DNA of 64,000 nucleotides from NCBI GenBank assembly GCA_020446425.1, contig JAGRES010000008.1:186001-250000 (forward strand). Direction: 5' to 3'. A program made the translations under genes and the position numbers. Below, one piece after another: positions 33,045 to 63,483 of this stretch. Position 1 is the first letter of the stretch, and every line of letters starts with the position of its first letter. The stretch is from Sphingobium sp. (GTDB taxonomy: Bacteria; Pseudomonadota; Alphaproteobacteria; Sphingomonadales; Sphingomonadaceae). Below the pieces are notes generated by a model. That model was not told where the DNA came from and did not search any database. It saw nothing but the letters and a program-made list of their open reading frames with translations.

Positions 33045-33064
33045 GAACAAATATAGAACATCAA
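33045..33064 (-). promoter_or_regulatory. LexA-type SOS box inside the radA promoter
   Basis: GAACAAATATAGAAC at 33045-33059 is a perfect GAAC-N7-GAAC, the alphaproteobacterial LexA operator. On the minus strand a -35-like TTGATG (33059-33064) precedes it, with a weak -10 about 16-17 bases on, so the operator would lie between the two hexamers. It is 15-29 bp upstream of the radA start. Confidence 0.7.
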
Positions 33065-33121: not shown

Positions 33122-34015
33122 ATGAGCAAGAAACCCCAGACGATAGCGCAGTTCTTCAAGCAGTTTCCCGATGACGAAACCTGTTTGCAGCATCTTTTCG
33201 ATGTTCGTTTCGGACAGGGATTCGAGTGCCCCGCATGTGAGCGACCTTCGAACTGGTACCGGATCAAGGCTGAACGCGCCTATTCCTGCCAGTGGTGCGG
33301 CCATCACCTTCACCCGACCGTGGGAACGCCGTTCGAGCAGACCCGCACTCCGCTGCAAATGTGGTTTTATGCGATCTACCTGTTCACGACGACGCGCAAC
33401 GGTGTCGCAGCGAAGGAACTGGAACGCCAGCTAGGCGTGACCTACAAGACGGCGTGGCGCATGGCGCACCTTATCCGCAAGCATATGGCTGAGGTTGACG
33501 GTGACGATCCGGTTGGTGGCTTCACCAAGCAGGTCGAAATCGATGAAACCTTCATTGGTGGTATTCAGGAAGGCCACAAAGGCAAGCTGTCTTCGAAGAC
33601 GGTTGTGTTTGGCATGATGGAGCGTGACGGCGAGATCGTGACCAAGGTTGTCCCCAATCGCCGCCGCAAAACCCTGATGCCGCTCATCAAGGAAAACGTG
33701 AAGCTGCATTCGATTGTCCATACCGACGAACACACGCCTTACATTACGCTAGGCCAAGAAGGCTATTATCACGAGATGACCAACCATGCGGCAGAGCAGT
33801 ATGTCTCGCCCAAGGGATCGAGCGTGAACGGTATCGAGGGTTTCTGGTCGCAGCTAAAGAGGACCATCAACGGCACACACATCCATGTGAGCGGCAAGCA
33901 TCTGTGGGCATATGCAAAGGAAGCGGAGTATCGCTTCAATCGTCGGGATTGCTCCGAGGCGATGCTTTCCGAGTTGCTGGGGACTTTCGGGCCATTGCCT
34001 TCAAAGTCCGATTGA
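33122..34015 (+). CDS. IS1595-family transposase
   Basis: This 297-residue transposase has an N-terminal zinc ribbon (ECPACERPSNWYRI and YSCQWCGHH). The catalytic core has Asp in VEIDETFIGG, Asp in VHTDEHTPY, and the N/E/K region VNGIEGFWSQLKR, as in this family. It begins 49 bp inside the left end. A perfect TATAAT at 33111-33116 lies only six bases before the ATG, so the transcript may be leaderless. No frameshift or stop is visible, so the gene looks intact. Confidence 0.95.
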   Translation: MSKKPQTIAQFFKQFPDDETCLQHLFDVRFGQGFECPACERPSNWYRIKAERAYSCQWCGHHLHPTVGTPFEQTRTPLQMWFYAIYLFTTTRNGVAAKELERQLGVTYKTAWRMAHLIRKHMAEVDGDDPVGGFTKQVEIDETFIGGIQEGHKGKLSSKTVVFGMMERDGEIVTKVVPNRRRKTLMPLIKENVKLHSIVHTDEHTPYITLGQEGYYHEMTNHAAEQYVSPKGSSVNGIEGFWSQLKRTINGTHIHVSGKHLWAYAKEAEYRFNRRDCSEAMLSELLGTFGPLPSKSD

Positions 34016-61476: not shown

Positions 61477-62238
61477 TCAGGCTTCGGCGGCGACGGCTTC
61501 CTCGGCGGGCGGCTCATCCATCGCACCGACATCGACACCGGCAGCAGCCTGTGCATCGTTGCCGCCACGGGTCGCGGCCTGGGCGATGGCGTCGCAATAC
61601 AGGCGGATCGCGCGGCTAGCGTCGTCATTGGCCGGAACCGGGAACGCGATGCCGCTCGGGTCAACGTTCGAATCGAGGATCGCAACGACCGGAATACCCA
61701 GAACATTGGCTTCCTTGATCGCCAGCTCTTCCTTGTTCGCGTCGATCACGAACATCACGTCGGGAATGCCGCCCATGTCGCGGATGCCGCCAAGGCTGAG
61801 CTCCAGTTTGTCGCGCTCACGCGTCATCTGCAGCACTTCCTTCTTGGTGAGGCCGTGCGTGTCACCCGACAGGCGCTCTTCCAGAGTCTTGAGGCGCTTA
61901 ATCGACTGCGAAATGGTCTTCCAGTTGGTGAGCATGCCGCCCAGCCAGCGGTGGTTGACGAAATGCTGGCCCGAACGGCGCGCCGCATCAGCAATCGGTT
62001 CCTGCGCCTGGCGCTTGGTACCGACGAACAGCACTTTGCCGCCGGCGGCGACGGTGGCCGAGACGAATTCCAGAGCACGCGCGAACAGCGGCACGGACTG
62101 GCTGAGGTCAAGGATGTGAACGCCGTTCCGCTGCCCGAAGATATAGGGCTTCATGCGGGGGTTCCAGCGGTGGGTCTGGTGGCCGAAATGCGCGCCGGCC
62201 TCAATCAATTGCTGCATGGTGACGACAGGTGCCGCCAT
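61477..62238 (-). CDS. rpsB: 30S ribosomal protein S2
   Basis: S2 stabilises the head-body junction of the small subunit. The 253-residue protein has [20 protein letters not shown] and [35 protein letters not shown], and [12 protein letters not shown], plus an acidic Ala/Glu-rich tail. AAGGAG precedes ATG 62238. It heads the long operon that continues to fabZ. Confidence 0.98.
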
Positions 62239-62252
62239 AGTCTTTCTCCTTC

Positions 62253-62280
62253 CGGTTACACCTCTGGGATTCAGTAACCG
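62253..62280 (-). promoter_or_regulatory. Hairpin in the rpsB leader
   Basis: CGGTTAC (62253-62259) and GTAACCG (62274-62280) form a perfect seven-pair stem over a 14-base loop. It is right next to the rpsB ribosome binding site. S2 can regulate its own mRNA in other bacteria, so this may be the binding structure, though this is unproven here. Confidence 0.45.
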
Positions 62281-62374
62281 AACCTATGGTCCAGCACCGG
62301 TATGTGCGAATCCCATGTGGAATGGTGCGGCGCTTAGCGGCGAAACCCGCGCAAGGCAAGCCCAAACATGCCTG

Positions 62375-62409
62375 TTGACATGCGGATAAAATTAGAACAA
62401 ATAGAGAAC
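62375..62409 (+). promoter_or_regulatory. Promoter with consensus -35 and LexA-type box
   Basis: TTGACA at 62375-62380 is a perfect -35. GAACAAATAGAGAAC at 62395-62409 is a perfect GAAC-N7-GAAC (LexA consensus), overlapping the place where a -10 element would be. It lies 72 bp before the small membrane-protein gene at 62481 and faces it. The box closely resembles the one at radA (33045-33059). Confidence 0.65.
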
Positions 62410-62480
62410 ATGGAAACAAAACAGCGGTAGGTCGTTATCGGGATATTAGGCCCGCCGCCTGGAATTTGGAAGGAAAAACG

Positions 62481-62708
62481 ATGGTTGCGATACTGACTGC
62501 AGCGCTGTTTTCTGTGGCACTAGTCGTGGCGATATTGTCGATAGCCTGGATGCTGTACAGCGACGGCCACAAAATGATCGCAGCCCTGCGATTGGAACAT
62601 CGGATAGCGGCACCTTCCCCTGCCCCGCATAAAGCCTTTCGCCGCACGCCTTATACTCACGGAGCTGTATCGCGTCCTCGCCCAGCCCAAGCGTTGCGCG
62701 CGGCCTGA
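62481..62708 (+). CDS. Small single-helix membrane protein under a LexA-type box
   Basis: I do not recognise a named family. The 75-residue protein has one N-terminal membrane helix (residues 1-25: MVAILTAALFSVALVVAILS...), then WMLYSDGHKMIAALRLEHRI and a basic Arg/Pro/Ala-rich tail. GGAAGGAAA lies just before ATG 62481. A consensus -35 and an SOS box are upstream, so expression may rise with DNA damage. Small SOS-induced membrane proteins such as SidA of Caulobacter stop cell division; a similar role is a guess from size, topology and promoter. Confidence 0.75.
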   Translation: MVAILTAALFSVALVVAILSIAWMLYSDGHKMIAALRLEHRIAAPSPAPHKAFRRTPYTHGAVSRPRPAQALRAA

Positions 62709-62718
62709 CCTTACAGTG

Positions 62719-63483
62719 TCAGGCAGCGGCAATGCGTGCCTTACGATAGCTCATCATGCCGAAAGGTATCAGGACCACATAGAATGCCGATATCGCCAAT
62801 AGAGTGAGCCAGGGAATGGTGAGCAACATGGCGGCAAGCAGACCCGCCACCGCAATAGCCTCCAGCCTGACCGAGCGGCGAATACGCAAGGCCCGCCAGC
62901 TATAGGTGGCAATATTGGAAATCATCAGGAACGCGACGAAAGCTGTCCAGGGCGCCACCACATACCATTCGCGGAATATCGGCTGATCGGTGACGAACCA
63001 GCAATAGAGCGGCACGAAGGCCAGCCCCGCTCCCGTGGGCGCCGGAACGCCGGTCAGGAAACCTGCAGATTTGTGCGGCTGGTCATCGGTGTCGATCTGG
63101 GCGTTGAACCGCGCGAGCCGCAATGCGCACATCAGCGCATGAGCCAGTGCAATCACCCATCCGAATTTAGGCATATATTGCAGCGACCAGAGGTAGAGGA
63201 TCAGCGCCGGAGCCACACCAAAGGCGATATTGTCCGACAGCGAGTCCAGTTCCGCCCCGAAGCGGCTTTCCCCTTTCAGCATGCGGGCGATACGGCCATC
63301 CAGCCCATCGAGCACCCCGGCCAGAATGACGCACCCGACCGCCATTTCCCATACGCCTGTCAGAGCGTAGCGCACACCGGTCAGGCCAAAGCACAAAGCC
63401 ATGGCCGTCACGGCATTGGGTGCAATCTGCCGTATTGAAATTCCCCTGCGCAGCCTGCGCGGTATCGTGCGGCGGCGTCTCAC
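62719..63483 (-). CDS. pssA: CDP-diacylglycerol-serine O-phosphatidyltransferase
   Basis: The membrane enzyme joins serine to CDP-diacylglycerol to make phosphatidylserine. The 254-residue protein has about eight helices and the CDP-alcohol motif [15 protein letters not shown] followed by AELDSLSD. The start is GTG 63483, which overlaps the psd stop by 4 bp (GTGA), so the two genes are translated in turn. Confidence 0.95.

Follow-up and report, generated by a model that had tools for sequence, protein, structure and literature searches.

A LexA-box gene for a one-helix membrane protein between rpsB and pssA in Sphingomonadaceae: a candidate SOS division checkpoint

We analyzed a stretch of 64,000 nucleotides from Sphingobium sp. 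(GCA_020446425.1, contig JAGRES010000008.1, positions 186,001 to 250,000 of the forward strand), called here the window, which belongs to a draft genome of 2.73 Mb. Between the divergent rpsB gene and the convergent pssA gene lies an open reading frame (ORF) for a 75-residue protein with a single predicted transmembrane helix, preceded by a -35 element, a perfect GAAC-N7-GAAC LexA box and a ribosome-binding site (Table 1). A first-pass annotation had proposed that this gene specifies an SOS-induced membrane peptide, and the features it named, including a consensus TTGACA, the perfect box, a good ribosome site and a location by rpsB and pssA, are all real in the window DNA. It had placed the box over the -35 element; GAACAAATAGAGAAC instead begins 14 bp past that element and covers the expected -10 position. 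A consensus promoter scan of positions 62200-62800 returned no promoters, and in many relatives the -10 position reads CATAAA or CATATA.

When the window protein was searched against 100 related genomes, 80 gave some match at an expect value (E) up to 1; most of these were noise, and matches with E below 0.005 came from the same genus only. All but one (L058) of the 30 homologue loci fetched, the window's own included, lie between rpsB and pssA. Each of these 29 syntenic loci carries one box on the ORF strand, 153-159 bp from the rpsB start, and their alignment shows TTGAC and both GAAC halves to be invariant, with a variable spacer and core. A profile search at E up to 0.01 matched 16 of 199 genomes of the family (Sphingomonadaceae in the GTDB sense), in 11 of 96 genera. 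Among 15 further loci found with the profile, a box stands upstream of the match in 12; in L062 and L069, where a reading from the match was not possible, the box was located in the rpsB-pssA gap, and L075, with neither neighbor and no box, may be a false match. A distribution limited to one genus was ruled out by loci anchored on rpsB. Among 30 family genomes without a profile match, 20 keep pssA near rpsB, and in these the small ORF is present in 20 of 20 and the box in 18. The apparent genus limit is thus a limit of the sequence search, and the gene, which the first-pass annotation had suggested looking for in other sphingomonads, was found at rpsB-pssA across the family.

A larger set of 110 unselected loci was fetched by rpsB alone, the gene itself being unused. 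It consists of those 30 genomes, from 30 genera of the family, together with the 80 best-matching named records, most of them from Sphingomonas, Sphingobium and Novosphingobium; some genomes may occur in both sets. In 95 of the 110 loci pssA lies 200-1300 bp from rpsB. Every one of these 95 gaps contains a small ORF whose N-terminal helix is hydrophobic, and 92 contain a perfect box on the ORF strand (18/20 profile-negative loci and 74/75 named loci), the remaining three carrying one-mismatch boxes. Base-shuffled gaps gave a mean of 0.63 and a maximum of 4 of 95 over 200 rounds, the other strand of the same gaps gave 3/95 and the reversed pattern 0/95. The first boxes of the 92 gaps comprise 60 different sequences, which have in common both GAAC halves and a left core rich in A/T. 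A near-identical ORF filter applied to the opposite strand passed in 5/95 gaps, none of these ORFs ending in AA. Outside the family, no box was found within 450 bp upstream of rpsB on either strand at 56 loci (28 from the order and 28 from the class, all in families other than this one, the window's own locus and L233 excluded), and the same ORF filter passed in 3/56, again with no AA end. L233, which falls within the family, carries the box as well as the ORF.

Fifteen of the 110 loci were excluded, pssA being absent from the fetched stretch in 14 and the gap measuring 1450 bp in one (L182). Four of them (L096, L100, L122 and L146) show a box and the ORF beside rpsB. The other 11 have no box on the ORF strand within 450 bp of rpsB, several of these stretches being cut by contig ends; one of the 11, L104, has a hydrophobic ORF without a box. 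Control spacings of the box were met in 23 (N5), 6 (N6), 1 (N8), 2 (N9) and 7 (N10) of the 95 gaps. The count for GAAC-N5-GAAC, well over the other wrong spacings, possibly reflects an extra half-site or a leader feature. Two perfect boxes precede the gene in several loci (L077, L090, L112, L125, L131, L148, L156 and others), an arrangement that could give tighter LexA control.

The box by itself proves nothing, because its occurrence is close to the chance rate: the window holds 2 perfect GAAC-N7-GAAC sites where 1.18 are expected, and the genome 61, compared with 55 for the reversed control pattern. What exceeds chance is the core sequence of the box and its conservation. Scored with a matrix built from seven repair and SOS box cores of the same genome, each training box being left out when itself scored, the candidate box ranks first among the 61. 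The genome encodes LexA, with the box GAACGAATGAGGAAC at the 5' end of lexA itself, and the 16 box regions that were read (Pfam) place boxes also at the 5' ends of recA, uvrA, uvrD, rmuC and a Y-family polymerase gene. These six boxes, with the one at the 5' end of radA described below, supplied the seven cores of the matrix. The SOS control proposed at first pass is thereby strongly supported by comparison (29/29 homologue loci, 92/95 gaps against 0/56 outside loci, rank 1/61), and we regard control of the gene by LexA as almost certain on these comparative grounds.

Other boxes of the genome deserve mention. The second perfect box in the window, GAACAAATATAGAAC at 33045-33059, lies between radA, on the minus strand, and an ORF on the plus strand that starts near 33122 and by eye is transposase-like with a zinc-finger start; the radA label of this box, one of the seven used for training, comes from the first-pass annotation and a reading by eye, without a family search. 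The boxes ranked 2 and 4 of 61 stand before the genes for a hemerythrin-domain protein (L186, C14:39971) and a radical SAM protein (L188, C17:67821), which are possible further SOS genes.

Table 1. Features of the rpsB-pssA locus in the window, and the dnaE-linked loci of other genomes discussed in the text
Feature	Position	Strand	Basis
-35 element TTGACA	62375-62380	+	sequence; TTGAC invariant in 29 aligned homologue loci
LexA box GAACAAATAGAGAAC, perfect GAAC-N7-GAAC	62395-62409	+	sequence, conservation, matrix score
-10-like hexamer CAAATA within the LexA box, at 17 bp spacing from the -35 element	62398-62403	+	weak consensus match
Ribosome-binding site GGAAGGA, six bases before ATG 62481	62468-62474	+	sequence
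Gene for the 75-residue one-helix membrane protein	62481-62708	+	ORF; homologues or positional equivalents across the family; dN/dS
Predicted transmembrane helix, residues about 4-26, conserved face F10, A13, A17, I21	62490-62558	+	
C-terminal LRAA, proposed degradation signal	62694-62705	+	Ala-Ala frequency; host tmRNA tag ends ALAA
rpsB, divergent neighbor, synteny anchor, outside the proposed system	61477-62238	-	
pssA, convergent neighbor, synteny anchor	62719-63483	-	
dnaE-linked box and ORF: L262, L265, L272, L274, L277, L315-L318, L322, L326, L337			

The 129 unique members of the protein family average 77 residues, with a range of 58-109 as read, and in two alignments the identity of relatives to the window protein does not exceed 49%. 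Among 61 independent pairs, the 26 closest (dS, the synonymous rate, below 0.57) gave ratios of nonsynonymous to synonymous substitution (dN/dS) of 0.07-0.67; the other 35, with ratios from 0.21 to 1.77, were left unused because their alignments were too divergent to trust. These values show that the gene is real and indicate that close relatives are under purifying selection. AlphaFold2, run on 17 sequences, predicts one helix, residues 2-42, followed by a low-confidence tail. The mean predicted local distance difference test score per block is 92-99 within the first 30 residues and drops to 53-59 in the tail; the score for the whole protein is 74.7. The least variable helix positions over all members, F10, A13, A17 and I21, form a stripe on one face, and 51 of 5000 shuffles matched the 100-degree periodicity of helix conservation. 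In 120 of the 129 unique members the residues preceding the helix have no net charge, and those following it average +6.2; by the positive-inside rule this charge distribution predicts a cytoplasmic tail. The one-helix protein with a basic tail described at first pass is borne out.

No credible match to Pfam, NCBIfam or PHROG families was found, and no sequence in the PDB matched at an E of 1 or less. Candidate hits to DUF4307 (E 0.16), a part of NADH dehydrogenase (0.27), BPD_transp_1 (0.049), EmrD (0.024) and two PHROGs without function (0.015 and 0.099) were rejected, each being below curated cut-offs or given by one member only. No LysM domain, which in proteins of the YneA/ChiZ type follows the helix, was matched in the window protein or in 16 relatives.

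The C-terminus carries a further conserved feature. Among the unique members 126/129 end in Ala and 112/129 in Ala-Ala, and the third-last residue is A, L or V in 105/129. Background frequencies of Ala-Ala ends are 8/450 for non-redundant ORFs of at least 150 residues (named loci and window), 2/49 for the window alone and 6/120 for other stretches of the same genome. In the unselected set Ala-Ala was found in 82/94 proteins, and in 55/64 after clustering. A nonpolar end in ...AA-COOH is thus conserved beyond all three background sets, and much of the remaining tail diverges fast. The host transfer-messenger RNA (tmRNA) tag is ANDNEALALAA, and a partial ssrA degron used with ClpXP is described as ending in Tyr-Ala-Leu-Ala-Ala (PMC6677533, available excerpt). 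By analogy we propose that the Ala-Ala end is a degradation signal, and that turnover of the product by a cytoplasmic Clp protease has somewhat better than even odds.

Taken together, these results are best read as describing a division checkpoint protein that is repressed by LexA, anchored in the membrane and marked for degradation by a signal at its C-terminus. It would be a counterpart of SidA, SosA and YneA without homology shown, and we assign this reading a probability of roughly 0.62. The gene would be a dedicated SOS gene of the Sphingomonadaceae, kept off by LexA sitting on the -10 region and turned on by RecA-triggered cleavage of LexA. Its 75-residue product would insert in the inner membrane via its one helix, and the face formed by F10, A13, A17 and I21 would dock on a partner in the membrane and delay septation, the likeliest partner being FtsW, FtsN or another protein of the late divisome. 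A block of division by the product is on balance probable, judging from the analogous inhibitors discussed below. With the basic tail in the cytoplasm, as the positive-inside rule predicts, the Ala-Ala end would be reachable by ClpXP or ClpAP and could be taken as an SsrA-like degron; removal of the product through this degron would lift the division block shortly after repair has shut transcription down. In its size, helix, control and removable end, the product matches the known design of damage-induced inhibitors best.

Several points weigh against this reading. The -10 hexamer in the window is weak, and near rpsB 14 of the 110 unselected loci lack a perfect box: three have boxes with one mismatch, and in 11 no pssA lies close. 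The dN/dS of distant pairs is uninformative, with a median of 0.86 over 2643 pairs. The predicted cytoplasmic tail depends on the charge rule, and the tail of SosA lies outside the cell. The background of 450 ORFs draws in part on a small number of gene families that recur across genomes, an Ala-Ala end is no proof of recognition by ClpXP, and a membrane-tethered substrate would be a harder case. The genes reported as induced in Sphingopyxis granuli under anoxia include lexA, recA, radA, dinG, imuAB-dnaE2 and SRAP (PMC6472365); in the available excerpt of that report this gene is not among the induced SOS genes, a list from which an unannotated ORF would be missing. No report of expression, LexA binding or phenotype for this gene was found in the literature: in openly licensed articles of PubMed Central on LexA or SOS in Novosphingobium, Sphingomonas, Sphingobium and sphingomonads, no title or opening of an abstract among the matches listed concerned it.

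The product could instead be an SOS-induced peptide of the TisB type, which would depolarize the membrane, lower the proton-motive force and lead to dormancy rather than to a septation block. It is small, one-helix and basic and stands behind a LexA box, all of which suits such a peptide, but TisB has 29 residues and no such tail; the long basic tail with its Ala-Ala end and the single conserved helix face point to a specific partner and to turnover, and we judge this alternative unlikely. Less likely still is an SOS-controlled modulator of the envelope or of a neighbor, such as phospholipid synthesis by PssA or another membrane enzyme, in place of the divisome. In 95 of the 110 unselected loci the gene has pssA as its neighbor, and L064 and L074 keep gene and box beside pssA with rpsB outside the fetched stretch; on the other hand, the four excluded loci named above retain both box and ORF next to rpsB although their fetched stretches show no pssA, and the gene is convergent with pssA and so not in one operon with it. 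That the box regulates rpsB, the ORF being incidental, is very improbable. The steady distance of 153-159 bp to the rpsB start in the 29 homologue loci would speak for it, but among the unselected loci this distance runs from 129 to 697 bp, the boxes follow the ORF strand rather than the other strand, close pairs show purifying selection on the ORF, and rpsB has no box at the 56 loci outside the family. A chance box before a spurious ORF, for which only the near-chance number of perfect boxes in the genome (61 against 55) would speak, is practically discounted by the conservation counts, the ORF-filter controls and dN/dS.

In other Alphaproteobacteria a box and a one-helix ORF of about 31-48 residues stand directly before dnaE in 11 of 30 loci, with ten of the 11 boxes on the ORF strand; these 30 loci are the best DnaE matches, 128 of 142 genomes of the class having matched, and the one-helix filter was applied there without a control. 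We take Caulobacter sidA to adjoin dnaE, and any identity of the dnaE-linked ORFs with SidA itself rests on that assumption; perhaps they represent a wider SidA family. In sphingomonads no box was found in the 700 bp upstream of dnaE in 29 usable loci, from a set of 30 in hand-picked genomes of which one was cut by a contig end. In the genomes examined the two arrangements thus complement each other (11/30 elsewhere against 0/29), and the sphingomonads examined seem to lack the dnaE-linked SidA-type peptide kept by some other Alphaproteobacteria. Among 20 hand-picked genomes of other families, 11 have dnaE, located by a peptide motif within 16 kb, at 3.5-9.5 kb upstream of rpsB. Positional descent from SidA was considered for that reason and is not claimed, because the small ORF and rpsB are co-directed elsewhere and opposed in sphingomonads. 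The first-pass suggestion of a SidA counterpart with no shared sequence fits in kind (one helix, LexA box, no known family, and the dnaE counts just given), and the first-pass interpretation is partly supported. Neither the conservation across the family nor the Ala-Ala end had been noticed at first pass.

A more specific version, to which we give slightly less than even odds, is a self-timed checkpoint, common to the Sphingomonadaceae, that evolved separately from SidA, has its own Ala-Ala degron and takes the place of the dnaE-linked SidA-type peptide. If true, arrest would last only while LexA is cleaved. The sphingomonads are a large group of environmental, pollutant-degrading bacteria for which no account of how DNA damage is coupled to division appeared among the literature matches listed. 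Here one gene at one address, in nearly all synteny-keeping genomes examined, predicts a switch, a contact face and a means of removal. Because the Ala-Ala end is frequent in an otherwise fast-changing tail, the case also suggests a possible rule for SOS division inhibitors, whose sequence would be lineage-specific and whose membrane helix and destruction signal would be kept.

The available excerpts of three reports describe SidA (29 residues, linked to FtsW), DidA (71 residues), YneA and SosA (77 residues) as one-helix, damage-induced division inhibitors (PMC4211646, PMC13396833, PMC6851548), and the comparisons that follow draw on the same excerpts. SidA of Caulobacter crescentus is, like the predicted product here, an SOS-induced inner-membrane peptide of an alphaproteobacterium (PMC4211646), and its operator GTTC-N7-GTTC is GAAC-N7-GAAC on the other strand (PMC4211646, PMC9578287). 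SidA has 29 residues without a long tail, whereas the product here has 75. DidA of the same species resembles it in its 71 residues, single helix and damage-induced inhibition of division, but is SOS-independent and activated by DriD (PMC4211646), whereas a LexA box is conserved here. YneA of Bacillus subtilis is likewise described as SOS-induced with one helix; that helix interacts with FtsW, and the protein is rapidly degraded, by the membrane proteases CtpA and DdcP (PMC13396833). YneA carries a LysM domain, for which the protein here has no Pfam match. SsrA-tagged substrates of ClpXP share the C-terminal ...AA and differ in that the Ala-Ala end here is gene-encoded. SosA of Staphylococcus aureus, compared by description, is similar in its 77 residues, one N-terminal helix and SOS induction (PMC6851548). 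Its relatives keep a conserved chromosomal location at 25-60% identity, much like the family described here, and its last ten residues are linked to turnover, for which they appear to be needed, a likeness to the tail signal proposed here (PMC6851548). The tail of SosA is extracellular and linked to CtpA, whereas that of the sphingomonad protein is strongly basic, predicted to be cytoplasmic, and ends in Ala-Ala.
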